A DNA stretch of 64,000 bases from assembly GCA_011316305.1 (NCBI GenBank), contig SAUG01000113.1, positions 173,871 to 237,870 on the forward strand. Direction: 5' to 3'. The notes under the pieces were generated by a model, which had not been told where the DNA came from, searched no databases, and saw only the letters and a list, made by a program, of their open reading frames with translations. Numbering within the stretch: the first letter of the stretch is position 1; every line of letters begins with the position of its first letter. The translations under genes were made by a program, and so were the position numbers. The stretch comes from Rusavskia elegans. Taxonomy: Eukaryota; Ascomycota; Lecanoromycetes; Teloschistales; Teloschistaceae. Shown here piece by piece: positions 20,372-47,766 of this stretch.

Positions 20372-20379
20372 AAACTGAT
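20372..20379. repeat. Left 8-bp target-site duplication AAACTGAT
   Basis: AAACTGAT directly precedes the left terminal inverted repeat at 20380. The identical octamer directly follows the right inverted repeat at 47759-47766. Confidence 0.85.
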
Positions 20380-20429
20380 GGAGCCTTCTAACCGTGCCCC
20401 CCAACATGTCTGCGCGTGCCCCTCTGAGT
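20380..20429 (+). repeat. Left terminal inverted repeat of the 27.4-kb element
   Basis: Starts GGAGCCTTCTAACC, contains a run of six C and TCTGCGCGTGCCC. Almost identical to the reverse complement of 47709-47758. Not RIP-degraded, GC-rich. Confidence 0.8.
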
Positions 20430-21054
20430 TATAAACGCTGTGGCGCTGAGAAACGCGAGAGACGATACTTCTTTTAGTATAGAAGAATATAGTGGTGCCT
20501 AAGTTATATCCCGCCGGCGTCTTATCGTCGACGCTACTAATAGAACCCCGCTTTTCTATTTCTTTCTCTATTTCTTCTATTATTTTTTCTGTTCTATTTC
20601 TACTATCTTTTTTCTATAATTATATATTATATCTATCGTTTTTATCGCTTTTATCGCTTTAATTAACGTTATTAATTCTATCGATATAAAGTTTTTTCCA
20701 TTATTTAAAAAAATCTTCTATAAATTTTATTCGGAAATTATCAACGACGTTAGCGAATATATTAAGATTTTAAATTATATTATTATTACCGGCAGAAAAA
20801 TAATAAAAAATAATATTATTTTTAAAACAAAACTTAATTACAATCAAAATATTATTCGAAAAACGAAAAATTATAACTATTATAATAGTATTTTTATAAT
20901 ATATAATTAATATTTTAAAATTTATTATTATATAAATAATAATTAATAGAAAGTATTTATCTATTAATCGACAAAAAGAATTTATATAATAATTGATTTA
21001 TAATCGAATAAAAGTCAATAAAAAACTAATTTAAATAAAAAGTAATAAATATTA
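20430..21054. other. Subterminal and AT-rich sequence, no gene
   Basis: The first ~130 bp keep normal composition. From about 20560 the sequence turns AT-rich with almost no CpA or TpG. No ORF or named repeat is recognised, except that 20985-21072 starts a repeat also present near 33096. Confidence 0.5.
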
Positions 21055-21072
21055 AAAAGACGTTAAATATAT
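21055..21072. repeat. Left 18-bp target duplication of the SINE-like insertion
   Basis: AAAAGACGTTAAATATAT occurs here and again exactly at 21491-21508, bracketing 418 bp. Confidence 0.75.
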
Positions 21073-21490
21073 ACGATAAATCATTCGGATTTTTGATTAT
21101 CTTTTACGAATTAATACTAGAGGCACTAACCGATCAGATTACGTAATCTTTTGGTAAACAAATATTTTACCGCGAATTCAATTTTAGAATTCTCGAAGGA
21201 ACTAGATTTGGACTAAAACTCAGAGGGAAATCGTAATCTATTTAATTTTTTTAAAATTCAATTCTAATTCGATCGATTTATACGAATACGAAACGATCTA
21301 CTAAATAAACCTTCTATATAAAAACTCTATATAAAAATCGATTTAATCGATAGAAAAAACTCAAATATTGGTAGACCTTCGAAGGATTCGAATCCCCGAC
21401 CCGCCGGATTAACTCCGCTAATTCCGAAAAGAAACGTTGAATCCGTTAGGCCGCCAGGTCACGCAGCGTTGCTACTGCGCTATTCAGGCC
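21073..21490 (-). mobile_element. SINE-like retroposon with tRNA-type promoter
   Basis: A 418-bp insertion bracketed by an 18-bp direct repeat, inside a dispersed repeat whose other copy (33096-33310) lacks it. On the minus strand its 5' end carries a Pol III A-box-like TAGCGCAGTAG (21482-21472) and a B-box GGATTCGAATCC (21395-21384). Long variable target duplications plus an internal tRNA-like promoter are the marks of SINEs. It is less RIP-degraded at its tRNA-like head than in its body. The 3' end has no obvious poly(A). Confidence 0.65.
21374..21488 (-). other. tRNA-derived head (A and B boxes), not a functional tRNA
   Basis: Minus-strand GGCCTGAATAGCGCAGTAG starts like a tRNA D-arm, and the GGGGATTCGAATCC block looks like a T-arm with mismatches. 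The A-B gap is about 77 nt and no convincing cloverleaf forms, so this is a tRNA-related SINE head and not a working gene. Confidence 0.5.
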
Positions 21491-21508
21491 AAAAGACGTT
21501 AAATATAT

Positions 21509-22488
21509 TTAAAATTATAATAAGATTTTTTAAATAGATTTATATAATTTTAAAAGATTTTAATATAAAAGATTAATTGAATTTTTTATAAAATTTTTAT
21601 AATCGCTTCTATATATTAATATATTCGTTTAAAATTATTGTTTTTCTAAAAGATTTCTATTTAAAATTAAATTGAATTTATATATATATATATATATTCT
21701 ATTAACGTTATATATAGTAACGATTGTTATATTTTATATATAAAAAAATCTTTATAGTAAAAAGTTTATTCGTCAAACAATGTTTATAGCGTAGTTAATT
21801 ACTTTTATTTAATTATTTTTTTTTAATTCGCGATTACGAATTCTCTATTATCTAGTCTTTTTTCGACGTTATAAATAATTATAAATATCTAATATTTCCG
21901 CTATATCTATTTACTATACTACGAAATAATTATAAACAATTATTATCTCGGTTATATTTATTATATAATCTATATCTAATCGTTTCGCTAAACTATTAAA
22001 ATATTCTTTAATCTATATAGTTTTAAAAGAGTCGTTAGCTATATAGTCGCTAGCTAATACGCTAGCTATTACGGTTAAAAACTTTATTCGGTCGATTAAA
22101 TTAAAAAGAGATAGAAAATTCGAATAGCGCGTTTTAAAAATAATAAAAAAGAAATTTTTATCGAAGTTAAAATAGGTTGTTCTAATTATAACGAGATAGT
22201 CGACGTCCGTATAGATATATATAATTATTACGGATTTAAAAAAATACTATCGTCAAATTTAACTACGATATAACTATTAAGAAAATATATACGTATGTAA
22301 AAGATTTTAAATTTATATACTAGTAAAAAAAGACGATAACTACGAGATATATTTATCTATAAAAACTTCTATATTAAATTATCGATAGAAAAATACGTTA
22401 TATTATTAAATAAATTTAAATAAAAAATATAAAAAAAAATTATTTACGTTAATTAAATTATAAAATAAAATTTATTATCGTATATTCG
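21509..22488. other. AT-rich RIP-degraded sequence, nothing recognised
   Basis: After the end of repeat E copy 1 (about 21640) only degenerate AT-rich sequence with an AT dinucleotide run near 21680-21700. No protein remnant was identified. Confidence 0.4.
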
Positions 22489-22888
22489 ATATTGGTATAC
22501 TAACGTTTAATTTATTTATCGAACCATTAATTTATCGAATATTCAAATCAAAATAAATAAATTAAATTAAAATTATTATATTATCGATAATAAATATAAT
22601 ATTATTATTTTTCTTTTAATATTATATTTTTTTTATTTAAAATTTTTAATTAAATAGTTAAAATTTTTTAATATTAGAAACGAAAGCCGATTTAACGGAA
22701 TTTAATTATAATTTTATTTTTTATTTCTAATATTCTATAAATTTAATATATTATTTATCACGTTATAAAACTAGCGTTTTTATAAAATTGTTAGCTAAAA
22801 TTTCTATTTATTTAATTAATTTGTTTTGATTTTGATATCCGATAAACCAATGATTCGATAAATAAATCAAACGTTAATATACTAATAT
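22489..22888. mobile_element. About 400-bp MITE with long terminal inverted repeats
   Basis: About 75 bp at the left end (atattggtatactaacgttt...) is complementary to the right end (...aacgttaatatactaatat). The differences are mostly RIP-type transitions. A TGATATCCGATAAACCAATG-like block lies in the right arm. Another partial arm of the same family is near 46745-46810. No coding sequence; ends are approximate. Confidence 0.55.
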
Positions 22889-22924
22889 TAAATATATAGT
22901 AATAGAATTTATATTCCAGTTCAA

Positions 22925-23396
22925 TGTTATAGGGCTACCTGGAGGTCCTGGTATCTTCAAAGGTTGGTTGGACTTATTGGTATGTCTATAAACGGAGGTA
23001 CAACGGGTAATTACTTCAAGTTAATATAAAAACAAGTCAGTTTAATTGCTAGAGCAGTATATAGCGATAACTAATAAATTAAATACGAGCTATAAAGGCG
23101 TCGAGTTCAGAATCTATATAGATAATAAAATCCTCCTTTTTTTAGGTACCTTACTCGCTAAGATAACTGAGATAATCTTCTTTAGGTACCTTACTCGCTG
23201 AGATAACTAAGATAACCTTCCTTAAGTACCTTACTTACTAAAATAACTAAGATAACCTTTTTTAGGTACCTTATTTACTAAGATAACTAAAATAATAATA
23301 CCAAGTCCTTCCTATCTATCTAGGCGTAATAAAGAGTTCCGGTGCTATACTGAATACTACTGCGTTCCCGAAGTTACGCCGCGCGTGCTTATAACA
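22925..23396 (-). mobile_element. Solo LTR of the chromovirus D family
   Basis: 472 bp, TGTTATAGG at the left and ...CTTATAACA at the right, flanked by the target duplication TTCAA (22920-22924 and 23397-23401). Its reverse complement aligns with both LTRs of element D (33624-34073, 43743-44230). It keeps the TG...CA ends and many CpA/TpG sites, so it is younger or was less exposed to RIP than D. It arose by LTR-LTR recombination of a full element. Confidence 0.8.
23138..23297. repeat. Four 40-bp tandem repeats inside the solo LTR
   Basis: Units at 23138, 23178, 23218 and 23258, each of the form TTYTTTAGGTACCTTACTYG followed by ctRagataact. The D LTRs hold shorter arrays of a related unit, which explains their length differences (450, 488 and 472 bp). 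Confidence 0.75.
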
Positions 23397-23401
23397 TTCA
23401 A

Positions 23402-25499
23402 TTAACGTAAATAAAAATTCTATAGAATTTTAATTTAAATTTATTTATTAATATTACGTATTTTTCTACCGATAAATATACCTCGTAGTTATCGCTTCTT
23501 TCTTTTCTTTTTCTTTTATCAGTAATACAAGTCCAAAAATCTTTACGTACGTATATATTCCCGCAACTAAAATTTCTATAAAAGCGGTCTATCTAATATT
23601 ATTATTATTATTTTTTATTTTTTAGCGAAATTAATAACAATTTATATCTATATAATAGAAATTCGTTATATATTACGAACTGTTACTAATAAAGATTCGA
23701 ATAGTCTATATATTTATATATTAAAGTTATATTTTATAGCCGGAAAAAATCTATTTTATTATATAATTTTCATCGATATTATTATAATTATAAAGAATTC
23801 GATTTTCGTTAAACTAGTTTTTACGATTTTCTATAAAAATATTCGCTAGTTAATTCTATTATTAAATAATTTAGAACTATATTTCTAAAAGCTATAGCGG
23901 ATTAATCGATAATCGGTAAATAAAATATCGAAAAAAAAATATAATATAAAAATAAAATAGTATATTATATACAATAGTATATGATTTTATATAACGAATA
24001 TATCGTAAAATCTATTCGATTGAAATCTATTACTTTATAGTAGAAATAGTTATAAATTTTAAAAAATTTAATATCGTAAAAATAATATCCGATCGAATTA
24101 TAACGATAGCGAAATTGTTTAAATCTATACATTACTAATAGACGTAAATCAACTAAAATATTAATTATTTACAATTTCTAATTAATATATCCGTATTCGA
24201 TAAATACGAACTAAAATATCTAGCCGTAAATTTAATATAGAATTTAGTAATAAATTTATTAATATAGTTATTTTATTAAAAATAGAATCGACAATTAAAT
24301 CTATTACGAAATACTTTGATTTTTAAAAAGTAAAAACAATTCGAACTCTTTTAATTAATATATTTCGTAGATTTCGGAAAATTAAATTAAAGTTTATTTA
24401 TTTTATATATATTACGATAATTATAAATAATAGTAATATTAATAATAAAAAGTAATATTATAATATATTCGATAATAAATAAATATTATATTTTAAATAT
24501 TTAAATAAAATTTAGATTATTTAATATATTTAAAAAAAAATTAAATTATAATAGAAAGGATTTTTTTAATCTATATAATATACGTAGTAATAAAAATAGT
24601 ACTTTTAATTCTTTCTATTTTAATAGAAATATAGAATATATTATTTTATCTATAACGCTATTAACGATAAAAAGAATAGAACTATCGATTTAATTTTTTC
24701 TAAATAAAAATATATTCGATAGTATTATTATAAACGGTAATAGCTAATCCGTTATCGAAAATCTATAATAAATAAAAAACTTTATCGATAGCGAATATTT
24801 TAGAAAAAACGGTGAAATTATTATAGTTTTATATATTTATTAAAAAAGTCTTAAAGTTCTAAAAAAAATTTTTTATTTTTTTTTATTTTTTTATTTTTAT
24901 TTTTTTTATTTTTTATTTTTTTTTTTATTCTATCTTTTTATTTTTTTTTATTTTTTTATTTTTATTTTTTTTTTTTTTTATTTTTTTTTTATTCTATCTT
25001 TTTATTTTTTTTAAAATTCGTTTTAAATTTATTTTCGTTTATAGATACTTTATTATTTCTTTTTACTTTTTTTTATTATTAGATTAGATTTAAAAATTTT
25101 ATTTATTATTTTAAAACGATTAAATTAGAAATAACTATAGTTATTATATTATTTTTATTTATTATATATATTATTTCTCTTCGGTAAATTATTATTTTTA
25201 TTAAAATAAAGAATTATATTATAGTTTATTATTAAATTATTTAAACGTTTTTGTAAAAAATATCATATAAATAATTATTATATAAAAGTTTTTAATATTA
25301 TAAAAACGAATATACTAGCGAAATTTTTCTATTAAATTAAAAATAAAAGAATATATCTATAAAATATAATAATAAAATTATAAAATTTTTTTTACTTATT
25401 TACTATTTCTACTATTTTTTACTTTTTCGTTTAAATTAATATTTATATCTATTTATCGATCTATATTTTAATCTATTACTTTTAAATTAATTTCGTTTT
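23402..25499. other. AT-rich RIP-degraded sequence with a poly-T tract
   Basis: No gene or element could be named. 24863-25012 is an almost pure run of T4-12/A blocks that contains an internal duplication of about 75 bp (two copies of attctatctttttattttt). The rest may be older, unrecognisable transposon remains. Confidence 0.4.
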
Positions 25500-27222
25500 A
25501 AAATTATTACGTCTACGACTTTATAGAAATACTCTGGAAAATTAGCCAGTTAAACGGAACTAATTATCTATAGTTATCTATAGTTGCTATAGCCGATTTT
25601 TATAATAGGACTTTTAGCGGACGATTATCTATCGGTACTATCGACTACTTTTACTATATATATTATTTATTATTTCTATTAAATAACTTTTTTCGTTAAT
25701 CGTTAATATAATTATTAAATATCTTTAGTTATTTCTTTTTTTTTAAATACTTTTATAATAAAAATACCTCGTAATATCGTAACCGTACTTTTATAGCTAT
25801 ACGGAATTAATCGCGATAATTTATACTAGAACTCTTTTACTATTTAGTAGTTCGAACTACGTCTACGGCTATAGTTAGATTCGAATATAACGCCTTCTAA
25901 TATATAGAGATATTATATTTTAACGATCTATTATATTAGTTTTATTATTTCGTTCTATAAATCGAAACGATACTATTAAAACGGTAACGCCTAATATTTT
26001 TAAAAAAGATAAAATATCTTTAAAGCTATAGTCTATCTAAATAAATATCTACTTCGTATTATATATAAATTAGTTTTCTAATAAAGTAATTAAAATTCTA
26101 TTTATAATATTATTTTTAGAAAGGATAATCTTTAATTAAATATAAATCTATATAGAAAACTATTTTAATAATCCGGAAAATTAAAAAAAAGATAAAATAT
26201 TATAAATTTTCTATATCTTTAGTAATCTAATTATAGCTATTAAAGAAACCTTCGGAAATAATAATAAAAATAAAATAATAAAAAGAAAACTAATAGTTCT
26301 AAAATAATAAAAATCGATAACTATTTATACTATTTAGTTTAAAACGTTAGTTTATAAAACGGATTAGAAAAACTTAGTTCTAAAAATCTACTTCTATAAA
26401 AAAGCTCTATATAAAAATTAAAAAAACTATAATAGTAATTAAAAGCCTAGATTCGTTTACGTCTCTAATTAAATTTATAACCAAAATCGATACTAGATAG
26501 TATAAAATATATTTAGATAAATAGTCGTTTAGTAAAATAGAACCCGTTAAAAAATAATTTAAAAAAAATCTAATAGAATTCGATACTACCGAAAATAAAA
26601 AATTATAGACTAAAATTTATTATTTATACGGAAAGATAGGATATTTTAAAAAAAATTATCTAATTAAAAAGGTAAAAAGATAACTAAATACTAGTTTAAA
26701 GTAATAGAAAAATTATCCGAAAGAAAAACTAGAAAATATATAACTAAAAATTCGATGACTTGCTATAATAATAATTATCTTATCTATCTATCGGATAAAA
26801 AAAAGTTGGGATAATATTCTAAAAAATTAAAGAAAGCTAAAAAGAAACTAATATTAGAGTTTAAACCGTATAAAACGGAAAAATCTCTAACGGTAGCTTT
26901 TAAAATCGAAATAGAAAGTTATAAAATAATAGTTTTTATAAATAGAAAGAAAGAAAATAAAATTATAAAAAGACTATACGACTAGATTAAAGGATATCTC
27001 TAAAGATTAATCTAGTAAAATAATAGAATTATAAAAATCGAAATTAAAATAAAAAGCGAATTTATCGGAATATCGAATTTTATAATAATCGAAAGTTCTA
27101 GATAATACGTTATATTTAGAAACGAATAGAAAGAATTAATTTCTAGAATATTAATATAAAAAAATATAGTCGGAAAAAAAATAAAACTATAGATAATATA
27201 CTTTCTCGCGTATAAAAATCTT

Positions 27223-30200
27223 TATAACGTCCCTGTATATCAAAGGGCGTTACGTTCGAACCTAGCTACAGCCGTAGACGTAGTCCGAGCTACTAAATAG
27301 TAAGGGAGTCCTAGTATAGATTATTATAACTAATTCTATATACCCGCAGAGGTACGGTTATAATATTATAAGGTATCTTTATTATAAAGTAATTAAAAAG
27401 AAAATAGTAGAAACGTATTTAATAATTATATTAACGGCTAATAAAAGAAACTATCTATAGAAGTAATAAGCGATATATATAGTAAAAGTAGCCGTAAAGG
27501 CCGATAAATAGCCGTCTACTAAAAATCCTATCTAAAGGAGCGGCTATATCGGCTATAGGCAGCTATAAACGATTAGGCTCGTTTATTTAACTAATTTCCT
27601 TATAGAACTTCTATAGAGTCGTAGATATAATACGGCCCCCCCTATATCGCTTCTTACCTAGTATAAAAGCTATCTGCGGGGTATAAAAAGAGTATTTTTC
27701 CTTTTCTTTCTTTCTTTCCTTTATTATCTTTTAATATCTTTACTATACGTTCCCGAAGAGAAAATCGTTTAAAATCTTTTTATTATATTTAATTAAAAGA
27801 AGTTATAATATCTTTTCCTTATTTTCTATATATCCGTAATCCTTTAAAAAAGTATAAAGTCGAAGTTAATAGTAATATTTATAATAAATATACTCGGGTT
27901 TAGAAATTATATAATTTTCTAATATCTAATACTATTTATATATTACTTTTCTATTTCTTTTACTTTACTAACTTTTATAGGAAAGCGTTTTAAAGATAAA
28001 AAGAATAAATTCTATTTTAATATCGCTAGTATTTTTAATAAATATTCTAAAGTTTATTATTATATCGAGTCTTTTCTTAATTCCGAAAAGGAAATTTATA
28101 ATAAATACTTAATCTAGAAATCGGATCTCCGCCGGCTTTTTAGTAAATAAAAGTATTTTATTATTTATTATCGCGCTTTAGATAAACGTAAAAGTAATTT
28201 TATTATTTAGAAGTAACGCGTATTATTTCGGCTCGATAAATTTAATAATCCAGTCGCGTTCTACTCTTCTATTAGTTTTACGCTAGTCGCGTAAAAGGCT
28301 TCTATTAAATCGATATCTAGTTTTAGTTCGAATAATCTAGATTAAATTTTAAGAGATTTTAATTTTTCTTAACCTATAGAAAACGTAGAGCTTTAAAAAA
28401 GGTCTAACTAAAGGCTTTTTTACTTTTATTTTTTATAAATAGTTTATATATCTATATTATAAGTTATTTTAGGTTTCTTTAATAGTTCTACTAAATTTTA
28501 TTCTTTAGCGACTATTTCGTCCTATAATAACGAGGATAGATACTAATCGAATTTTTTATCTTTTAATTATATACTAAGTATCGGGTCCGGTATTCTTTTA
28601 TTCTAGTCTATTTAGTTCGGTTTATAGTATTCGATTTTTTTTTATAGTTTTAACTATATTTTAGTATATTTTTCTAACGTAGTCTATCTAAAACTATTAA
28701 ATTATTTTTCTACTTTTATTATATTTTTTAGTAAGTTACTAAAAGAGATAGTAGTAATCTTTCTAAATTTTTATATTCTAAACTTTTCCGCTTTTTTTAA
28801 AATTTTTATCTAATTCCTTAATATTATTATATTTTATTATAGAAACGACGTCTATTTCTTTATATAAAAGGTTTTTATAGGCTAGAATATATATTATTTA
28901 CGATTCTATTTTCTTATCTATAGTACTTTTTTCTATTAATCTTCCTAAAATTAATTCTTTTTACTTATTTTCTAGGATAATATAATTTCTCTAACTTTTA
29001 ATAATAGTAAAATTTATTATTTTAATTAATCTATTTTTTATTTTAATATCGATATCGAAGATTCTATTATCTTCTATTATCCGTTTATAGAAATATCCTT
29101 TAATTTTATTATAGAATCCTTTTATAACCTTATTATTTTCCTCTCTATTTACGAAAGCTATTATCTATTAACCTCCGATTTTGATTTTAAACGCTGCTAT
29201 AAAGGGTTTTTTAGTTTTATATAATTTAAAGTCGATTATTAGTTTTATTTTCTACGCTTTTCTTGGTTTTTTAGAATAATATCCTATCCTAACCTTATCC
29301 GATAGATAGATAGGGCAAGTATTATTATAGTAGGCTAACCAGCTTTTTACTATATATTCGTAGGATAATTTTTCTATTATTTTAAAAAAGTATTTAGTTA
29401 TTTTAATTACCTTTTTAATTAGGTAATTTCTTTTAAAGTATTCTATTTTTCTATATAAATAATAAATTTTAGTTTTCAATCCTTTAGTTTTAGTAGTATC
29501 GAGCTCTATTAGGTTTTTTCTAGGCTTTTTTTTAACAGGTCCTATTTTACTAAACGTTTACTTATCTAAATATATTTTATACTATTTAATATTAATCTTT
29601 ATCGTAAAGTTAATAAGTTTTACTAATAAATCTTATTTTTTAATTACTACTATAGCTTCCTTAACTTTTATCTAGAATCTTTTATAGAAATAGGCTTTTA
29701 AAATTAAATCTTCCTAGTCTATTTTATAAGCTAATATTTTAAACTAAGTAGCGTAGATAACTACCGACTTCTATTATTTTAGAATTATTAGTTTTCTTTC
29801 TATTACCCTATCTTTATTATTATTTCCGAAGGCTTCTTTTATAGCCGTAATAAGATTACCGAAGGTATAAAAGATCTATAATATTTTATCTTTTCTTTAT
29901 CTTTCTAGGTTATTAAAATAATCTTCTATTCGAAGCTATATTTAATTAAAAGTAACCTTTTCTAGATATAATATTATAAATAGAACTTTAATTACTTTAT
30001 TTAAAAATTAGTTTATATATAATACGAAGTAGATATTTATCTAAATAATCTATAGCTTTAAAGATTTTTTATTTCCTTTATAGATATTTAGTATTACTAC
30101 TTCAATAGTATCGCTTCGATTTATAGATCGGGATAATAAAACTAATATAGTAAGTTATTAAAATATAACGTTCCTATATATTAGAAGGTGTTATATTTAA

Positions 30201-30573
30201 GCCTAGCTATAGCCGTAGACGTAGTCCGAGCTACTAAATAGTAAAGGAATCTTAGTATAGGTTTTTATAACTAATTCTATATATCTATAAAGGTACGGTT
30301 ATAATACTATAAGGTATTTTTATTATAAAGTAATTAAAAAAAGAATAGTAGAAACGTATTTAATAATTATATTAACGGCTAACGAGAGAAACTATCTATA
30401 GAAGTAATAAGTAATATATATAGAAAAAGTAGCCGTAAAGGCCGATAAATAGCTATCTACTAAAAGTTCTATCTAGAAAAGCGACTATATCGGCTGTAGG
30501 CGGCTATAAGCGATTAGACTCGCTTGCTTGACTAGTTTCTTTATAGAACCTCTGTGGAATCGTAGACGTAACA
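27223..30573 (-). mobile_element. Element A: 3.35-kb gag-only LTR retrotransposon nested in B
   Basis: LTRs 27223-27632 and 30174-30573; target duplication ATCTT at 27218-27222 and 30574-30578. The termini are TATAACG...GTAACA, i.e. TG...CA with one RIP change. Coding sense is minus: a polypurine tract (reverse of cggcccccccta at 27633-27644) lies next to the 27.6-kb LTR and the gag remnant reads on the minus strand. Internal region is about 2.5 kb, too short for a full pol, and no polymerase motif is visible. Confidence 0.82.
29252..29479 (-). pseudogene. gag zinc-knuckle remnant of element A
   Basis: A 75-codon stretch still open by chance. It reads IYYLYRKIEYFKRNY, which is a CCHC zinc knuckle with the Cys and His positions turned to Tyr by RIP, followed by SWLAYYNNTCPIYLSDK and YYSKKPRK, the usual Trp/Cys/His-rich and basic gag tail. 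It is a fossil, not a gene. Confidence 0.7.
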
Positions 30574-31048
30574 ATCTTTTATATAAAAAATTAAATATTA
30601 TATTAAATACGAATTACGAATAGATTAAAGAAATCGATATTCTTTTTAAAAAAAGAGATAAAATATAGAAAATAAAGATCTGGAAAGAATATTACTATCT
30701 ACTAACGTAATTAATATTAAAATATTATAAAAATCAAAAAATAATCTAAATACTATAGATAGATAATATTAAAAAACTCTATCGGAATATTATTAAAAGT
30801 GTAGAAAAGATCGAATATAACTATATACTAGAACCAGATAAAGGAATCTCGAATTCTATATTAAACGTATAACCTAAAGACGAATAGTTTCAATTTTTAT
30901 TATTATAGGATAAAATAGTAGCTAAAAAATAAAAGTTAGCGGAAATTTTAGAAAATTTAGATATAATTTATAATAATAATATATAATTCGAAACGAATAT
31001 AGCGAAAGAAAAAAGAAATTTTTAATTAGATATTCTTTTATATACTTG

Positions 31049-31160
31049 TCGCTTTCAAAGGCTGAAAAAAATCAAATTCTTTCAGAAATCGAATCAAAAC
31101 CAAGAATCGATTTGATAGACGCCTTTTACGCGGCTGACGTAAAACCAACGGAGGAGTAAA
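31049..31160 (+). other. RIP-spared patch inside element B
   Basis: About 110 bp keeps CpA and TpG sites (ggctgacgtaaaaccaacgg) though both flanks of the same element are fully RIP-mutated. It aligns with the RIP-mutated equivalent in A (reverse complement of about 28290-28400). The plus-strand reading LSKAEKNQILSEIESKPRID is open. Confidence 0.55.
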
Positions 31161-32192
31161 ATATTACAAAATCGTTAAATTTATTAAAACGAAATAAAAC
31201 GCGTTATTTCTAAACGATAAAATTACTTTTATATTTATCTAAAGCGCGATAATAAGTAATAAAATACTTTTACTTTCTAAAAAGCCGGCGAAGATCCGAC
31301 TTTTAGATAAAATACTAATTACGAATTTTCTTTTTAGAATCTAGAAAGGATTCGATATAATAGCGGGCCTCGGAATATTTTTTAAAAATATTCGAAATAT
31401 CGGACCGAAGTTTATTCTTTTAATTTTTAAAATATTTTTCTATAGAAATTAATAAAAAATATAAACTAGAAGAAAAATATATAAATAGTATTAAAAATTA
31501 ATAAATTATAAAACTTCTAAGCCCGAATATATTTACTATAGATATTACTACCGACTTCGATTTTATATTCTTTTAAAAGATCTCGAAAATATAAAAAATA
31601 AAAAAAAGATATAATAGTATCGTTTAATTAAATATAACGAAAGGATTTTAATCGATTTCTCTTTTAAAAATATATAATAAAGATATTAAAGGAAAAAAAA
31701 AGAGAAATAGAATTAGAATCCTTTTATATTCTATAGAAGAGAAATATATTAGATAAAGAGCGCTATAGAAAAGGCCGTATTATATCTATAATTTTATAAA
31801 AGTATTCTAATAGATTAGCTAATTAAATAAAACTAATTATCTTTAGCCGTCTATAGCCGCTATAGCCGACCTTTATAATAGAGCTTTTAGCGGATAGTTA
31901 TCTATCGATACTATCGGCTATTTTTACTATATATATCGTTTATTACTTCTATTAAATAGCCTTTTTCGTTAGTCGTTAATATAATTATTAAATATCTTTA
32001 GTTATAATTTTTTTATTTACTTCTATAATAAAAATATCTTATAATATTATAATCGTACCTTTACGGCTATATAGAATTAGTCGCGATAATCTATACTAGG
32101 ATTCTTTTACTATTTAGTAGCTCGGAATACGTCTACGGCTATAGTTAAACTCGAATACAACGTTTTCTAATATATAGAAACGTTATAAAAAT

Positions 32193-33618: not shown

Positions 33619-34219
33619 AAAAATGTTATAAACACAGGCGACGTACTTTAAAAAACGCGGTAATATTTAGTACAGCGCTGAATTCTCTATTACGTCTCGA
33701 CAGGCAGAGATATATAGGATAGCTAAATATTAGTACTAAAAAGTATCTTAATAGTTTTAGTAAATAAATACAATAAATACTTTAATTTTAGTAGTTTTAG
33801 TAAATAAATACTCTAAAATGGAACTGTTTTAATTATTTTAATTAGTAAATAATTTAAATAATAGAGGATTTCATTTATCTATATAAATTCCGAACTCGAT
33901 ACCTTTATAGCTCGTATTAAATTTATTAGTTATCGCTATATATGACTCTAGTAATTAACTAATTTATTTTTAATTAAATTTAAATAATTACCCGTTATAT
34001 CTCCGTTTATAGATATATTAATAAATTTAACTAACTTTTAGAAATACCAAACCTTCTAGATAGTTCTATAATATTTTAAATATCTTTAAAATATCTATCG
34101 TAGATTAATATTAAATTTCTAATTTAAATAACTCTAGCTCTATAGCGAAAAAGTCCGAACCTAAAAGAAAGGAAATCTAGATAAAAGACGATAGTAGTAA
34201 TAAAGAGATTAGTATTTCT

Positions 34220-37200: not shown

Positions 37201-37558
37201 TAAATATAGTCCGAGCTACTAAATAGTAAAGAAATCCTAGTATAAATTATTATTACTAATTTTATATATCTATAGAGATACGGTTACGATATTATAAAGT
37301 ATTTTTATTATAAAGTAATTAAAAAGAGAATAGTAGATATATATTTAATAATTATATTAACGACTAACGAAAGAAACTATTTATAGAAATAATAAGCGAT
37401 ATATATAGTAAAAGTAGCTATAAAGGCCGATAGATAGCCGTCTACTAAAAGTCTTATTAGAAAAGACGGCTATAGCGGCTAAAGGCGGCTATAAATAATT
37501 AGACTCGCTTGTTTAACCAATTTTTTTAGGGAACCTCTATGGAATCATGGACGTAATA
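34220..37558 (-). mobile_element. Element C: third copy of the 3.3-kb gag-only LTR family, inserted in D
   Basis: LTRs 34220-34629 and 37149-37558; target duplication TTTCT at 34215-34219 and 37559-37563. Collinear with A in the same orientation. More strongly RIP-mutated than A (even the ends are TATAACG...GTAATA). Sits between the left LTR and gag of D. Confidence 0.82.
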
Positions 37559-40500
37559 TTTCTACTACTAACTAACGCTTTTATAGTAATAAAATTAATA
37601 AACTCGACGAATATTATAGAAATTATAATAAATTCGAAAACTAGCTCGTATAATTAGATATATATTTTATATTCTATTCTATATCCGAAGAAAAAAAAAC
37701 GCTTTTTATCGTATTTTATTTATAAAAACGAGTTTAGTACTAGATAAAATCCTTCCTTCGCTAATATATAGATAATAAAAAAAATCGTAAACGTATTTTT
37801 ATATAGTTTATAAAATTTAAAAAAGCTATTTATAAAATCTTTAGAATTTTAAATAAAATTCTAACTATTAAATATTTTATTTAATACTTTTAATAAAAGA
37901 ATATAATATTTAACTACGCCGTATAATTTAAAAAATAGGTACTATTAATAGAGTAGAATAATAACGTTCTATACGTAATATTTAGACGAGAATTTAAAAA
38001 ATAAATAAAGAACGAATTTATATATAATAGTCGAGTATATAATATACTATATAATCTAATCGAGATATCTATCGACTTTAATAATAAACTATATAAAAGA
38101 GATATAGAAAAACGCTATAATAGCGGACTATAAAATAATACGGGACGTTATCCGGAACGAGTCTATAGAAGACTATAGCTAGATAAAAAAATCGGAAATA
38201 GCTACTACGAACCTATACTAATAGAGATAGATTCTATATAATAGCGATATAAAGGGAAAAATTCTAGAAATAATAAAAAAAATAAGAATTCTAAAATATA
38301 CTATAATTATAGTAAACTAGACTACTTTACGAAAGAGTATCGGTTAAACCAAATATAATAACGACAGTTTAACGCTACGCTAAAGAAATCTAAAAACTAG
38401 TAAAAAATAATTTTAGAAGATAATAATAATAGTTTTAAACCCTAGAAAACTAGTTTAAATAGAGAATTTATATTTATAAAGAACGATAAAATACTATAAA
38501 AAGCTATAATAAATAATATTTCGTTATAAATACTAATAAAATCTATTAAAAGGAGAGCCGTCTCTAAATAGAAGATTATAATAATAGAAAACGTTAAATC
38601 AATATACCTTTAGACCCTTTATAATAAAGAACTAGTAAAAGAGATATTTATAGTAATATATAAAGAATTTAAAAATATTTATAAAATATATTTTAACGAC
38701 GAATACCTAAAAGACGATTAGTAAAATAAAAAAATAAATAGTATTATTAATATAATAGAAAGAAAACTCGAAAGTAATACTTCTAGAAATAAAATTATTT
38801 CTAACCGATATTATAACGGAAAAACGTAATAATAGAAAATTAATATATACTTTTTGATTAGACTGTCTACTATAATAATAATTATAGAATTTATAAATCG
38901 GAAAAAAAAAGAGCCGGATAGTATCTATCGAAACTATACCGACGCGCTTTTATAATATCTATTAAAGTCGGAAAATATAATATTTATAACTATTCCGGAT
39001 ATAATATATATAGTAGATACGAATACTAGAAAAAATAATAAAAAAAAAATAGAACCTTTAATTAAAAATTCCATAGATATATTTTATAAATAGATTATAA
39101 AAATAAAAAATATAATAACGTAATCGATAATTTAAAAAAAAGTTAAAATCTTATAATAACGGATATATTATAAATATATAAGTTTTTAGCCCGGAAAAAA
39201 TAACTAAATTTAGCTAGCAATATATATATATTTAAAAAGTAAATAATCGTCGAAACTAATAATAGATTATAAAAGATTAAAGTATTTATCGATTTAGACG
39301 TAACCGGAAATTTTATATTAAAGGATTTAGCTAGAAGGAAAAGATTTCTTTAAATTAAAAAAAAGAATCTATATAATTTAATAGTTATCGATAGAAATAA
39401 AATATTAAATAGAAATAGAAGAATTATAGAAGAAATAATACTATTTTAAATAATAATTAATTAGTACTAGAAAGAAATTTAGTTCGATATTATTTATATA
39501 GCTAGCTACGAAATCGTATTTAAAATTTTTTAATTAAAAGATTATAATCTAGTAATAGATTAGGAAAAAAAAAATTTAGTTTTAAATAATATTTTTATAT
39601 AGAAAATATCTAGTCTATATTAGAGTAGAAATTTTAAATAGATAAAAAATAGAATATAAAACGCGAATTTATAGTTTTAAAAAAAGATAACTAAAAACTA
39701 ATTAGATCCGATTTATTAAATACCGGTAGAAATTAGCTAAATTAATAAAATAAAACTAGAAAAAAAAATTATAAATCTTTCTAGAATTCTATACTATTTA
39801 ATAAAAAGTTAATAGAAAATCTATTAAAAAGAGTTCTAGGTAAATATAAAAATTAGATAAATTTATTTCGGAAAAAAGTAACTATAAAAATATTATTTAA
39901 ATATTAATTATAGAATTATATTATTTTATTTAAACTAGATAAATAATCTATATTTAGATCTATCTATCTATTATCTTCGACGGAATTTAAAATATTTTAT
40001 AAATATCTAGACGAAAATATAAAAAAGAAATTTATTAGGAAATTTTAATTATTAATAGGATATCCGATCCTCTTTATATTTAAAAAGAACGGAATATTCC
40101 GTCTATATATCGACTATTAGAAGCTAAACGATATTATTATTAAAAACCGATATCTACTACTAAATATTAGTAAACTTTAAAATAGATTTTCTAAAATATA
40201 ATATTTTATAAAATTTAATCTTCGAAGAATATATAATTTTATATAGATAAAAGCCGGGAAAAAATAGAAAATAACTTTCCGAATAGAATACGATTATTAT
40301 AAATATATAATTATATTATTTGAATTTACGAACGTTCCGGTAATCTATTAGAATATAATTAATAATATATTTAGAAAAGATCTAGATATTTTTATTATTA
40401 CCTACTTCGATAATATTCTAATATTTTCTAAAATATTTAAAGAATATAAAAAATATATTAGTAAAGTTTTTAAATATCTAGAAAGGAAAGATTTACGCTT

Positions 40501-40852
40501 TAAACTAAAAAAATATAAATTCTATAAAAAAGAAATCGATTTTCTAAAATTTATTATTAAATATAATAGATTACGTATCGATTCTAATAAACTAAAAGCT
40601 ATTATAGAATAGAAAATACTAATAAATATTAAAAAAATATAAAACTTTTTTAGATTTATAAACTATAATTAAAAGTTTATAAAAAATTATTTTAAAAAAA
40701 CTTTCGCTTTTATAGCTTTAATAAAAGATACTATCGAATAGTATTAGAAAAAAAGAAAATAATAAATATTTAAAGATTTTAAAAGAAAATATATAAAAGA
40801 CCTAGTATTTAAAATATTTAATTAAAAGAAATTATTATAAATAGAAAATATA

Positions 40853-41454
40853 TCAGCGAATTCCAAAATAGATTTTCAGATTAGACCGGCTGACAGCCAT
40901 CTCAATCTAAATAATCCAAAAATCCAAATAATTCAAAAAGTAGATTTTCGATAGATTGGAGCTCTAATAGTATCTATAGTACGAAAATCTGCTTAATAAA
41001 TAGCCTAAAATAGAGTCTATATATAAACTAAAAATAAATCTATATAATTTAAATCGAAAATAAAATTTAGCGGCCGCCGCTAAAAGCGGGAATAATAGAA
41101 ATCGAATATCTATTTAATAAACTACGCTAGACCTAATCTAGTTAGATTCTAGTAAGGAAACCTAATATTTTCGATCTAGACGAAGCTAGCCTAGCGTTAT
41201 ATATAGGCGTATATAGGCCTACTAGCTACTAATAAGGATTTAAACGAGTTTAAAATCGAATCTCTAAATTTTCTTAGCCGTTTTAGCTGTTTAGCCGTCT
41301 TAGCCGTTTTAGCCGCGCAGCTACGCAGCTTCGGGTATACCCGAAACCGGCTAATAAGTCGCTTATAAGCCGGTTTTAGCCGTACCGGCTAAAAATCGGC
41401 TAAGACGGCTAAGACGGCTAAAACCGACTTTAAGCCGGTTTTGAGAAATGCTGA
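40853..41454. mobile_element. 602-bp DNA MITE inserted in the RNase H region of D
   Basis: Starts TCAGCGAATTCC and ends AAATGCTGA, so the termini are short inverted repeats (TCAGC). It is flanked by TATA on each side, and removing the insert plus one TATA restores the RNase H reading frame of D. The insert keeps CpA and TpG and has normal GC content, so it arrived after D was RIP-mutated. The left end includes GATTTTCAGATTAGACCGGC; the right third is a GC-rich set of inverted short repeats. No ORF. Confidence 0.75.
41277..41442. repeat. Inverted TTAGCCGT minisatellite in the MITE
   Basis: Copies of cttagccgt/gttttagccg on the left half are mirrored by cggctaaga/cggctaaaac on the right half around cgggtatacccg. 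The strand could fold into a long imperfect hairpin. Confidence 0.65.
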
Positions 41455-44235
41455 TATAAATTTATTAAATCTAGCTATAGATATATATCTTCTATAAAAG
41501 TATAATAGCAAATAGTATCCGATAGTATATATATTAAAGAAATTATCGCTAGTAAAATAGAATTACGATATCTATAATAAAAAACTACTAGCTATAGTAG
41601 TAGTACTAGAATAGTAGAAAGTATACGCCGAAAAATTATTAGAATTAATAATTTTTATAGATTATAAAAATCTTCTATACTTTATAATAATAAAATAACT
41701 TAATAGAAAATAAATATAATGGTTTAAACTCTTCGGTTAATATAAATTTAAAATATATTATATTTTAGATAAAGAAAATAGAAAAATAGATATTTTAAAT
41801 CGAAGAAATAATTATATAAAAATAAAAGATGTTTTTAATAATAGTATCTTTAAAATTAATAAAAATAGATTACTATTAATAAATTAATATAAACTAAATA
41901 TAATATTATATATATTCAAAAACGATTAAAAATAGTTTTCTATTAAAAAAAAAAACTAAAAATATTAGATAATTAAATCGATAAATATATTAAAAAGTAC
42001 TATAATAAAATACTATAAAAATACCTAGGCGTAATAAAAATAATATAACTTTTACGATAGTATTACTAGTTTTCTAATATAAAGTAATATATCGAAGTAT
42101 ATATTAAAAAATATTTTAGTTATTAATAAAATAAATATATTATATATATTCGTTATAGAAAGATTTAATATTAGAAACTACCGGATTTATTATAGAAAGA
42201 AATTATATTAGATTTTATTATTAAATTTCTAAATTCGAAAGACCCGATAATAAATATAAAATACGATTTAGTATTTAATATAATAGATAGATTTATAAAA
42301 TATATCTATATAATTCTATTTTAAAAAGACTTTATAGTAGAATAACTCGGATTTATTATTTTAGATCGATTATTTCGATACTATAGACTACCGGAAGTAT
42401 TAATAAATAATAGAAATAAATTTTTTACTTCGAACTATTAGAAAACCCTTATTTTTCTATTTAATATAAAGTTAAAAATATTAATAGCTTTCTATCCGAT
42501 AATAGATAGATAGATAGAATATATTTATCAGATTTTAGAATATTATCTAAGATATTATATTAATAACGTCTAGAATAATTAGATTTTATTTTTATTAATA
42601 GTACAATTAGTATTTAATATAAAAGAGTTAAATACGATAAAAAAATACCGTTCTATATCGATAATAGAAAAAATCCGAATTTATTTAAATAACCGCTATT
42701 ATATATATTAGCGGAATTAGTAATCTAAAAAGTCGATATTTAGAAAAAAATCTATAGAAATATTCTAAAGATATAGAAATATTTAGGTAATTACTAAAAT
42801 AAGAAATAAAAAATAGTACTTTAATTAAAAATAGAAAATAAAGTATATTTTTTTATAAAGAATCTAAAAATAAAAATTCCAAATAAAAAACTTAACTATA
42901 TTAAAATCGGACTATTTTTAATTAAAAAAATTAAAGGACTTTAGAATTTTAAATTTAATTTATCTAAAGACGTTATATTATATTCGATATTCTATATTTT
43001 TTTTTTAGAACTAGCCGATTTCGAAACGCCTTTATAATAGATATTTAACTTCGAAATATAAAAGGAAAATATCTTTATAGTCGATAAAATCCTATAATAA
43101 AAGGGTTAGAATTATCTAATTAAATAGAAAGATTATTCTATTTCGAAAAATATTTAGAAATTTAAAAAATATTTAGTAAACTACTAGAAGATTCTATAAT
43201 AGTTTTATTAAAAAAAGCTAAAAATATTATTAACTAGCCGAAATCGCTAGATAGAATAATCTATTCGGAAGCTATATCGATAAAAAAATTTAAATCGATA
43301 GACGAAAGCGGATCTACGGAAACCTTTTTTTATTCTAACTTTTTAATATTTTATAGCTTTTTATTAACTATAATACGCTGTTTTTCTTTAATATAATTTA
43401 ATTAATAAAATAGATATTATTACTTCGTATATACTTTATATAATTCCCTTTTTAACTTTTTACGTTTATTTTTAAGACGACGTTACTATATAGTATCTAA
43501 TAAAATAAAATTATAAAAGTAAATTTATTTTATATAACTAATATACTTTTCGGAACCTTCGCTAATATAATAGAGTTTTCCCGACTAGAAATAATTCCGA
43601 TAAAAACGTATAGTTAATATACCGATATCTAATAATAGGATTTTTTTATAATAATCTTTAGTTAATAATCTTTTCTTTTTACCTATAAGAAAGAAGGATA
43701 GAAGGTTTTTTTAAAATAAAAAATCTAAAGAAAGAACCTAGTATTATAAATACAGGCGGCGTACTTTAAAAAACGCGGTAGTATTTAGTATAATACTAGA
43801 TTTTCTATTAAATTTCGATAGGCAGGAATATATAGGATAGCTAAATATTAATACTAAAGAATATTTTATTAATTTTAATATATAAATACTATAAATACTT
43901 TAATTTCAGTAGTTTTAGTAAATAAATACTATAAGTACTTTAATTTTAGTAGTTTTAGTAAGTAAATACCCTAAAATTGAACTATTTTAGTTATATTAAT
44001 CAATAAATAATCTAAATAGTAGAGAATTTTATTTATTTATATAAATTTCGAACTCGATATTTTTATAGCTCGTATTTTATTTATTAGTTATTGCTATATA
44101 CTACTCTAGTAAATAACTGATTTATTTTTAATTAAATTTAAATAATTACTCGTTATATCTCCGTTTATTGATATACTAATAAATCTAACCAATCTTTGAA
44201 AATACCAGATCTTTCAGATAGCCTATAACAAAAAA

Positions 44236-47200
44236 ATTATTAAAAGTTTTTAATAATAATTATAAAGTTTTTTTTCCAGATTATATCGATAAATAATCGC
44301 TATTATCTTCTACTATCTTTATTTTAATATATTATAGTAATAAATATCTCTTTTATAATCGGCTACCATTTTTTAGAATATAAAAAATAAAAAGATTACA
44401 AATAGTTTTTAAAGGAATTTAGTTCGTTTTTAACGGAATAAAATATTTCTAATCTCTATATAACCGTTATCGATAAAGAATTCGGTTTTAATAATATTTT
44501 AGATACGATTTTTCTTTAATCGAAAATCTATATTTATATCTAATATTATAAAATAGATTTTAAAATAAAAATTAAAAAAGAATATCTATTTATATTATTC
44601 GTAGAAAGGTAATATTTTAAAAACTAGCCGAATTCGTTCTATTAATAATACTAACGAGTCCAAAATATTGTTTTCTATACTTTAATAAAGTAATAATATT
44701 ATAACTTTTATTAAATATTTAAAGACGAATATTCAAAAAAAAATTCTAAAATTAATTAATTATATCTACGATATCTAGTTCTTGATTTATACTAATGTAT
44801 TTACTTCTACAATATTAATCGTTTTATATACTAAAAAATTAATATAATTAGTCGAATAAACATCGACTATATAATATAAAAATACCGTTTGTTATCTTTT
44901 GAATATAATTTAAAAGCCGTTATAAACTAGTTTTTTTATTTTATTAAAAATTAAATTAGAAACTATAAAGTCGCTATTAATAAAAAGAAAAATTATCGCG
45001 ATTTTCATTATTATATTACTTTATTTTCGATTATTATCTTTTAAATTACGCTATATTCTTTTAAAAAAATATATAAATAATACGAAATAGATAAAATAAA
45101 ACGATAATATCGAAGCATTTTACCAAATTATAGAATTTTTAAACAAATGTAAAATTGATTACATAATTCAAAGTATAGAAAATATTACTATTATTTATTT
45201 AAAAAATATTAACTAATATTAGATTTGTAATTTTCGAAAATTTTATCGGAAAAACTTTTTATAGTTTAATTATAATAGAATTAAAAATGGTTTTAATAAC
45301 TTCGACGGCGATTTTATAATTAATTGTTTATTATATCAACAAATATATAATCCGTTTATAGTATTTTAAAATGAAAAAAACGTTCAGAATCGATCGAACC
45401 GGTTTGAACAAGATTATCTTATTTAGTAAACAGAGAAATTTTGATATATTCTAAAAACGTCTATTTTATCTATATTTAGAATTATAAAATTAAACTTTTT
45501 AAAGTTTAGTATCCGTTAGTTTCCGTTTAATAACGGGAAGCTTCTAGTTTACAAACTAGCCACGCTAGCGTTCTATAAATAGGATTTTTATAATCTACGT
45601 TAATAGTTTACTAGTATCGATATATTATAGAATACCAGTAGCTCTACTAGATAGAAGGATTTAGAATTTTTAAAAGATTTTTTTTTAAAATTTCAAAACT
45701 CGTTTAAAGCGTTTAAAGCGCTTATAAGCGCTTATAAACCAAAATCTTGCTCGTAGACGTTTATAAATAAAAGGCTTGTTCACGAGCGCTTTTATAACGC
45801 GCTAGACAGAATATAGGATCAGATCCGCTTATCAATTCAAATCTATTTAATTAATTTTAAACGGGGTCGATACTTTTGCTGATGTACTTTAAATTATTAA
45901 ACTTCGAATTAAATCAAATAAAAAAGAAAAAAAATTTATTACTATAAAATATCAATAAACTATAGAAAACAATATTCGAAAATTATTTTCTTTATTCGAA
46001 ATTATTAAAGCGAAAATTAATTTAAAAAATCGAAACCGAAATCGAAATAGTAAAAAAAAAATCGGGAATAATAGAGAGAAAAAAATACTTTAAAACGAAT
46101 TTCTTCTAATATTTATTACATCGGCGATATTATATATATTCGATTGTTTTCTACTTATTTTATAATCTTTTTGGTAAATTTAACGACTAGCGATAAAAAA
46201 TGAAATAAATATAAATAATATTTTATTATATTATATATATAATTACTAATAATTTCCAACGATAAACTTTTGATTATATTTATTTAAATATTTAAATTTC
46301 TTTTTCTCTTTTATACATTTTCGCTAGATCTATTTAAATCGTTAAATCTCTATTTATTCGACTATAATCTATTCGATAATCTTTTGATAATCAATTTTAA
46401 ATCTAGTATATAATTTTTTAATCTTTTATTTATTAATTTTTTCTTTATAGTAATTTTTCTTTCTATATTTTTCTATTATAAACTTCTTCGATCTTTTATT
46501 ATAGTAGTATTATCTATATATATAAAGGGTAAAAAAATAAAATTATCGATGACGAAAATACGAATACTAGAAAAAGAAATAAAAAAATCGAAAAAAAAAA
46601 TCGAACGAACGCAGGCTTTAAAAAAAAAAGCGGGAAATAAAAGAAAAAAGAAATAGAAATTTTATATTAGATATACTGTAGCAAATTTTTATAAAAAAAA
46701 AAATTTAAAATTTTTTTTAGAAAATATTTAGACGATAAAAAATAAATTTAATAATTTAATTAATTTATTTTGTTTTTAATATTCGATAAATTAATAATAT
46801 ATTAATATTAATTATATATATCGACAACGTCAGCGGCGATAGCGTTTTAGATAATAAAATTTAATCGACGAATGATTTGATATCGTATATATAATTAGAT
46901 AAAAAGTTTGTATATAGATTTTTAATAGTAGAATTTTTCTATATATCGAAACGAATTATTAACGATCGGTATTATTCGATTTACATAATTTTTATATTAT
47001 AGATTTTTTATAATATAATTATTTAGATATATTGATTTTTTATTGGCATTTCTAGAATTTTAATAATAACGTTAAAATTATTTAATATACGATTATAATA
47101 TAACAAAATAATAGTAAAATATCCGAAATATATTATAAAATTGAAATCTAATTTTGTATAACTATTAAACTAATCGTCGAATCGGATTTCGAATCTAAAT

Positions 47201-47708
47201 AAACTAATCCGATCCGATTCGAATCGAATTAAAAAATAGTCCGATCCGATCCGATTCGATTTCGATTTAATCTATTAAAACAATTAAATTCTAGTATAAA
47301 AATATAATTTTAATATAAAAGTTATATCTATTTATTTAAAAAACTTCAAGTCAATTAATTACGCTAGCTAGAAAAGTCCTAGTCTGATTAAATATATTAT
47401 TTAAATATATTACTTTTATATAAAATTAAATAATCGATTGATTATAATATTATATTATATATAGAAGGTTTTATAAATTAGATCGGATTTCCATCGGTTT
47501 TTATTCTATAATTCGATTCGACTTTCGGTTCTAATATTATCTAGAAACCGATCCGAACCGCGAACCGACTCGTTAAAATTCGGGTCGGGTTCCCGAAGTA
47601 CCGACGAGAATCCGACCCGAAGTAGCCAGTCTAATAACTACCTTACTAGCGAGATCGTCGGCGTATATATATATAGTACCTGCCGCGCGGTAGTATTATT
47701 ACTAAGGA
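44236..47708. other. AT-rich sequence between D and the right TIR
   Basis: Mostly RIP-degraded. Three items stand out. 45530-45900 is a patch with better GC and retained CpA, holding gtttaaagcg/gcttataagc repeats. 46745-46810 resembles one arm of the 22489-22888 MITE. 47160-47630 is rich in CCGATCCGATTCG-type short repeats. No gene recognised. Confidence 0.45.
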
Positions 47709-47758
47709 CTTAGGGTGGGCACGCGCAGATATGTTGGGGGGCACGGTTAGAAGGCTCC
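47709..47758 (-). repeat. Right terminal inverted repeat of the 27.4-kb element
   Basis: Read on the minus strand from 47758 it begins GGAGCCTTCTAACCGTGC and matches 20380-20422 at 42 of 43 positions. Confidence 0.8.
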
Positions 47759-47766
47759 AAACTGAT
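47759..47766. repeat. Right 8-bp target-site duplication AAACTGAT
   Basis: Same octamer as 20372-20379. The predicted empty site joins 20379 directly to 47767. Confidence 0.85.

Follow-up and report, generated by a model that had tools for sequence, protein, structure and literature searches.

A probable Mutator-like transposon, interrupted by nested insertions, in a 27-kb RIP-damaged block beside a CofD-like gene of Rusavskia elegans

Repeat-induced point mutation (RIP) is a fungal process that mutates repeated DNA, and Hop1 of Fusarium oxysporum, a fungal Mutator-like element (MULE), is reportedly active. MULEs of ascomycetes also include VdMULE1-3 of Verticillium dahliae, which are 3.4–3.6 kb long, carry a PF10551 domain and have terminal inverted repeats (TIRs) of 53–86 bp that start with GG; an 8-bp target duplication has been recorded for one of them (PMC3441728). 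In maize and rice, nested insertions affect over one third of the candidate coding MULEs; the affected elements hold one or two insertions on average, and those of maize are interrupted mostly by long terminal repeat (LTR) retrotransposons (PMC3903597). Large RIP-affected regions of more than 4 kb are a described category in Ascomycota (PMC7882544). Here, we describe element A, a TIR-bounded block of 27,379 bp in a stretch of 64,000 nucleotides of Rusavskia elegans (contig SAUG01000113.1, positions 173,871 to 237,870; hereafter, the window), taken from an assembly that comprises 217 contigs and 44.16 Mb. Element A is most likely a MULE of about 3.1–3.4 kb that was damaged by RIP and swollen to its present length by about 13 insertions.

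Read in this way, element A shares with VdMULE1-3 the ascomycete host, the TIRs starting with GG, the PF10551 domain (here as a relic) and, as recorded for one of them, an 8-bp duplication, and with Hop1 the fungal Mutator-like type and the GG-starting TIRs; its residue of about 3.1–3.4 kb can be set beside the 3.4–3.6 kb of the Verticillium elements (PMC3441728). There are, however, several differences. The TIRs of element A are shorter (42 bp), and they start with GGAGC, whereas the terminal consensus of Hop1 is GGNAA (PMC3441728). Element A is damaged by RIP, whereas no clear RIP bias is reported for cut-and-paste elements of Verticillium (PMC3441728), and it is split by about 13 insertions, unlike VdMULE1-3. 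The interruption by other elements is a feature in common with the maize and rice MULEs, but the number of insertions far exceeds the one or two that are typical of affected plant MULEs (PMC3903597). Like the large RIP regions of Ascomycota, the block is RIP-mutated and well above 4 kb in length; unlike these regions, as they are described, it has intact transposon ends, so that its origin is traceable to one founding insertion (PMC7882544). Literature searches, which covered titles and beginnings of abstracts and not sequences, yielded nothing on this TIR family or on MULEs of Teloschistaceae.

The block is bounded by a real TIR element with an 8-bp target duplication. The two TIRs are identical at 41 of 42 positions (28 matches, a mismatch at position 29, 13 matches, and then the end), and the octamer AAACTGAT adjoins both of them exactly. 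The inverted repeats at both edges and the 8-bp duplication had been noticed in the initial annotation; of the 42/43 match given there, the 41/42 within the TIRs stand, and the extra T beside each TIR is part of the duplication. If up to 3 mismatches are allowed, the window contains two matches to the initial 28 bp of the TIR, whereas 100 shuffles contain none. Pairs of exact 8-mers that enclose the region 44292–44555 and are followed inward by at least 15/20 inverted matches number 29; the pair of element A reaches 20/20. The next-best are two pairs with 17/20, a value that was also reached by 2 of 30 shuffles, although these shuffles mix the block with its flanks, yield 3.4 such pairs on average and are a mild control. 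Thus, the duplication lies immediately outside the TIRs and has a length within the 8–11 bp given for MULEs (PMC3903597), and the outward-facing TIRs are far above 75% identity, two of the features by which MULEs are recognized. A third is MULE transposase sequence between the TIRs, which is discussed below.

The composition of the block differs strongly from that of its surroundings. The GC content falls from about 0.5 in the flanks to about 0.2 within the block, and the dinucleotides CpA and TpG are reduced to 0.16 and 0.14 of expectation inside, compared with 1.09 and 1.12 outside, a depletion that is a strong RIP signature. The index of RIP targets (CA+TG over AC+GT) is 0.05–0.45 across most of the block and 1.1–1.5 in the flanks. 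The TIRs had been thought to lie exactly at the composition breaks, which proved to be inaccurate: the breaks are found about 200 bp inward of each TIR, and the outermost ends of the block are still GC-rich; at the right end, this sequence is partly another repeat.

Between the TIRs, to the right of the LTR element Y, a plus-strand frame matches the MULE transposase domain PF10551 with 12.9 bits if TAG is read as Q, with 19.0 bits if TAG is read as W, and with 20.7 bits on a shorter piece (E 5.8e-4). Of ten MULE relics found elsewhere in the genome, the seven that exceed the Pfam cut-off were used to build a profile. With this profile, the same frame scored 35.9 bits (E 9.3e-11), compared with 0.9 bits for the second-best site in all six frames of the block and 6.2 bits for the best of 3000 codon shuffles. 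At positions where C, W and H are expected, the relic reads, by eye, Y, stop and Y, as RIP would produce. In addition, the sequence 46193–46741 matches C27:131163-131739, which lies downstream of a MULE relic at C27:132852-133103, and the distance from the same aligned domain codon to the start of this next match is 1166 bp in element A, net of an inserted miniature inverted-repeat transposable element (MITE), and 1157 bp in C27. Because the spacing is collinear with that in C27, the sequences on both sides of the MITE at 45332–45886 probably belong to one MULE gene. The profile match with its frame and shuffle controls and the collinearity with C27 together place MULE transposase sequence between the TIRs. 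By coordinates, the residue of element A between its TIRs amounts to 3,094 bp, or to 3,422 bp including the loosely assigned region 33296–33623, as a sum of separate pieces.

A second, damaged MULE of the same genome provides a positive control. The element at C166:66234-70082 is 3849 bp long and reached 105 bits, a score obtained only with the seven-relic profile. It has TIRs of about 96 bp that start with GGGAAGG, that is, with GGGAA (compare the GGNAA consensus of the Hop/VdMULE group), as well as an exact 8-bp duplication, TTAAAGTA, and it contains a nested relative of the Tc1/mariner-type MITE that sits in the LTR element Y at 40848–41458. It belongs to another MULE family and shows that a MULE of this genome has an 8-bp duplication and intact ends. 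Because the residue of element A holds a MULE relic and the element in C166 has the same design, the family defined by the TIR of element A (TIR-A) is most likely Mutator-like rather than hAT or KDZ. Elsewhere, an AT-rich block at C169:548122-549510 contains two matches to the MULE profile, with 17 and 61 bits; a search of that locus found no TIRs with an 8-bp duplication.

A generalized TIR-A pattern, with up to 3 mismatches, was found at 53 places in the 44-Mb genome (25 forward and 28 reverse), compared with 0 and 2 for the reversed control. A search for the TIR in convergent pairs had been proposed in the initial annotation, and it yielded 17 pairs, counted from the pattern list with one short pair completed by a separate search: element A with 27,379 bp and 16 pairs at 239–1421 bp. 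In C215 and C149, an unpaired end follows a forward TIR at a distance of 5.5 kb and 12.6 kb, respectively, to the right; because each of these forward TIRs has a close partner, the two cases were excluded as pairs. Twelve of the 16 short pairs were read, and their target duplications are exact over 8 bp in eight cases, whereas two have 7/8, one has 6/8 and one 5/8 matches. Because the TIR-A places pair convergently and the short copies carry 8-bp duplications, the block can be regarded as a real TIR element. The left subterminal region of element A also recurs in the short copies, 7/12 of which exceed all 200 shuffles. The GC content of the short copies is 0.47–0.52 in 11/12 cases, the exception being the 1421-bp copy in C37 with 0.30, and their RIP-target index is 0.56–1.29 (C37: 0.58), mostly below the values of 1.1–1.5 in the flanks. 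The short copies are therefore mildly depleted of RIP targets, far less than the inserts of the block, and the idea that they escape RIP entirely was rejected.

Several members of the family deserve separate mention. The 1421-bp copy (C37:6882-8302) has an exact duplication, ATCTGATC, and an AT-rich insert that includes an internal direct repeat; it may represent the same nesting process on a small scale. A single TIR-A end at C217:13903 borders about 12 kb of AT-rich sequence with many E-type LTR elements, and its other end was not found within 19 kb. Single TIRs (in C166, C135, C32, C202, C217 and C169) were also considered as ends of long elements, but no second end with a matching duplication was present in the 20–40 kb read at each of them. 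A second long TIR-A copy was not recognized in the assembly.

Various observations weigh against the assignment of element A to the MULEs. The curated cut-off of PF10551 is 27.6 bits, and the relic stays below it in every run, with a score that depends on how TAG is read and on how long the piece is. Unrelated families reached E values of 0.005–0.008 in the same Pfam scans (ETRAMP, E 0.0047; MJ0548_N, E 0.0083), so that Pfam alone is insufficient for a MULE claim; these two and the further weak matches to MutH, LZ3wCH, Peptidase_S49_N, Phage_TAC_18, GAGA_bind, COesterase and VirB3 were taken as chance. The relic of the window is absent from the ten candidates of the genome-wide PF10551 search, a protein search with the relic returned 298 candidates, none of them at E <= 1, and the Pfam scans of element A recognized no N-terminal domain. 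The GGAGC start does not fit the terminal consensus shared by Hop and VdMULE (PMC3441728). Among the three long matches of the region 45890–47157 (C27, 65%; C173, 67%; C113, 62%), only that in C27 adjoins a listed MULE relic; the same region has many matches of about 40–95 bp near 46733–46800 and a few near 46899–47042, and it may contain small further repeats. Within the block, 24668–25504 is without assignment and 33296–33623 is assigned loosely. In the loci that were read, a MULE domain did not occur in any other TIR-A element: the profile matches there lie 34 kb from a single TIR (C166:68810-69112) and more than 12 kb from a TIR (C169:548122-549510). With respect to the TIR family, 20 of the 53 TIR-A places are unpaired. 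The particular TIR subtype of element A is less common: its first 23 bp, with up to 2 mismatches, occur at only 5 places, 3 of which are outside the window and lack a partner in the stretches read, and an 18-bp TIR pattern with 3 mismatches does not beat its control (27 versus 25 occurrences). Finally, only 1/12 short copies exceeds all shuffles for the right subterminal region.

The nested structure of the block is summarized in Table 1. The order of the insertions was read from their nesting, using a self-comparison of the block, genome searches with pieces of it and an inspection of the boundaries. Of the 13 insertions, 8 have exact duplications of at least 5 bp, one has a duplication with 7/8 matches, two are of the TA type, and for two (X and the repeat of about 220 bp) none was found. 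The search for duplications spanned up to 14 bases from each boundary, and therefore a 5-bp one may be due to chance; those of the LTR elements adjoin ends of the TG/CA type (TA where changed by RIP). X, Y, the TA-type MITE and the abundant MITE-like repeat are inserted directly into element A. X, in turn, received an insertion resembling short interspersed nuclear elements (SINE-like), two repeats resembling long or short interspersed nuclear elements (LINE/SINE-like), the repeat of about 220 bp and the LTR element E3. Altogether, about 24 kb of the block are later inserted material, which corresponds to a roughly eight-fold increase in the size of element A. The proposal that a TIR element had become a landing pad for LTR elements, a SINE and MITEs thus describes the locus well.

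Table 1. Features of element A and of the insertions nested in it (positions in the window; an empty cell means that no strand was assigned)
Feature	Position	Strand	Remarks
Left target-site duplication	20372–20379		AAACTGAT, exact 8 bp
Left TIR of element A	20380–20421	+	related TIRs elsewhere in the genome
Left remnant of element A	20422–20981	+	subterminal region common to short copies, then AT-rich damaged sequence
Insertion X	20982–33295 (pieces 20982–24667 and 32192–33295)	+	ends approximate; carries further insertions; about 5.5 kb elsewhere, with similar ends
SINE-like insertion	21073–21490	-	in X; flanked by the long direct repeat AAAAGACGTTAAATATAT; strand and tRNA-like B box by eye
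LINE/SINE-like repeat, A-rich end	21640–22566	+	in X; 11-bp target duplication TTAAAATTATT
Second, short inverted copy of the LINE/SINE-like repeat	22808–23566	-	in X; 13-bp target duplication CTAAAATTTCTAT; holds the solo LTR
Solo LTR (TG...CA)	22925–23396	-	5-bp duplication TTCAA; resembles the LTRs of Y
LTR element E3	25505–32187	-	about 3.35 kb net; between the X pieces; split by E1; 5-bp duplication AAAAT
LTR element E1	27223–30573	+	inside E3; LTRs about 410 bp; 5-bp duplication ATCTT
Dispersed repeat, about 220 bp	32423–32646		interrupts the right piece of X; found by genome search
LTR element Y (TG...CA)	33624–44230	+	carries E2 and a TA-type MITE; LTRs about 0.45–0.49 kb; 5-bp duplication AAAAA (low complexity)
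LTR element E2	34220–37558	+	inside Y; 5-bp duplication TTTCT
Tc1/mariner-type MITE	40848–41458		in Y; TATCAGC ends next to TA; boundaries +-3; type assigned by eye
Element A right of Y	44236–45331	+	holds the transposase relic; sequence comparison
MULE transposase domain relic	44292–44555	+	with stop codons; Pfam and relic-profile match
TA-type MITE	45332–45886		in element A; ends TATCAACAAA/CATCAGCAAA; at least 41 other long matches, 77–88% identity
Element A	45889–47157	+	46193–46741 collinear with C27
Abundant MITE-like repeat	47166–47633		duplication ATAACTAT/ATAACTAC (7/8)
Right subterminal remnant of element A	47642–47716	+	sequence comparison
Right TIR of element A	47717–47758	-	inverted match to the left TIR
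Right target-site duplication	47759–47766		AAACTGAT, exact 8 bp

Most of the inserted elements belong to repeat families of the genome, the sizes of which are lower bounds because the searches score only the best candidates. The left piece of X is present near full length at at least 7 other places and the right piece at at least 11; relative to the other copies, X in the window is without about 3 kb of its middle. No convincing target duplication was found at the boundaries of X, and the 9-bp repeat AAAAAGAAT was dropped as a candidate once X was found to reach about 33295. To the left of about 20975, no other match was listed in the genome search, in which the best 40 of 1831 candidates were scored. 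The ends of the repeat of about 220 bp do not carry a direct repeat of at least 7 bp. The solo LTR contains a 40-bp tandem repeat (TTAGGTACCTTACT...) at 23142–23295. The MITE-like repeat at 47166–47633 has imperfect inverted ends, TAGACTGG/TAAACTAA, and gave 1166 first-look candidates, the best 40 of which were scored; it is perhaps hAT-like.

An alternative to a MULE as the founder is a non-autonomous MITE of about 0.5 kb, in which case the relic would stem from a separate MULE that was inserted together with the other repeats. This reading is favored by the short length of 16 of the 17 TIR pairs (239–1421 bp), by the AT-rich DNA contained in one family member (in C37; 1421 bp, GC content 0.30) and by the resemblance of the left end to a MITE in C26 over about 360 bp, albeit at low identity; moreover, no MULE gene was found in a TIR-A element elsewhere. 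However, no other TIR with an 8-bp duplication surrounds the relic above the shuffle level, the residue, 3.1–3.4 kb by coordinates, would match the size of the Verticillium MULEs (3.4–3.6 kb; PMC3441728), and the MULE in C166 exhibits the same design of TIRs and duplication. A 0.5-kb MITE split by insertions was our favored interpretation until the residue was seen to contain a MULE relic; we now consider it unlikely and retain it as a rival of the MULE interpretation.

The remaining alternatives concern the nature of the TIR element as a whole. In the initial annotation, a giant element that moved with its cargo was envisaged as one of two possibilities, and the intact TIRs (41/42) and the exact duplication are indeed what a 27-kb unit would display. 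Yet the families of X, Y and the E elements are also represented at other places, the other 16 TIR-A pairs do not exceed 1421 bp, and no second long pair was recognized in the assembly. Because about 24 kb of the block are later insertions and 8 of the 13 insertions have exact duplications of their own, the cargo consists of separate insertions, and a giant unit is extremely improbable. For a Starship-like unit, likewise, no second long unit was recognized in the assembly, in which no search with a captain recombinase model was made. The same annotation had guessed at the hAT or KDZ families, a guess that we replace by Mutator-like in view of the MULE relic between the TIRs. Duplications of 8 bp fit hAT and KDZ transposons as well as MULEs. 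However, MULE is the sole transposase family listed in the residue frames scanned with Pfam, and the start GGAGCC is unlike the known ends of hAT elements. No hAT family and no KDZ transposase domain appeared in these scans, which covered one of three minus frames for 20380–20981 and did not extend to 47642–47758, and the sensitivity of which, also for KDZ and hAT, is lowered by the RIP damage. We thus regard a hAT or KDZ origin as highly implausible.

The gene to the left of the block, at 18611–19987, encodes a protein of the CofD family (PF01933), and the left AAACTGAT begins 384 bp upstream of its start codon. The best relatives listed for the CofD-like protein are from lichen fungi of the Teloschistaceae, with 80% identity to a Calogaya protein over the whole length, 82% over 95% to a Xanthoria protein, and 94% over 57% to a partial Xanthoria protein.

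The MULE interpretation suggests the following course of events. Element A would have inserted upstream of the CofD-like gene and duplicated 8 bp of the target, presumably by the cut-and-paste activity of a MULE transposase, as is usual for the family. RIP, acting when copies existed, would have damaged the transposase gene. About 13 elements, namely X, the LTR elements E1, E2 and E3 of about 3.35 kb each, the longer Y, a solo LTR, SINE/LINE-like repeats and MITEs, would then have entered element A and one another, and their accumulation may reflect a site that was already silent and no longer under selection. The block would have become AT-rich through RIP of these inserts, with the TIRs left intact; the ends and the short copies might have been hit less because they are short. 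Because its transposase is broken, element A is probably immobile on its own. As its TIRs are intact, there is a very slim chance that a MULE transposase provided in trans could still excise the whole 27-kb nest. If so, a RIP-silenced heterochromatin island would be mobile cargo that could be seeded at new gene-rich sites.

Element A is of a known kind and is unusual in how fully it can be read. The ends of the founder are intact, the later insertions are nested and their relative order is readable, so that one can follow, layer by layer, how the insertion of an ordinary DNA transposon beside a gene, most likely of a MULE, can found a RIP-silenced island of 27 kb. For annotation, the locus supplies a TIR family that comprises short copies and, probably, a damaged MULE parent, and it helps to ask why the ends of elements and short copies suffer less from RIP.

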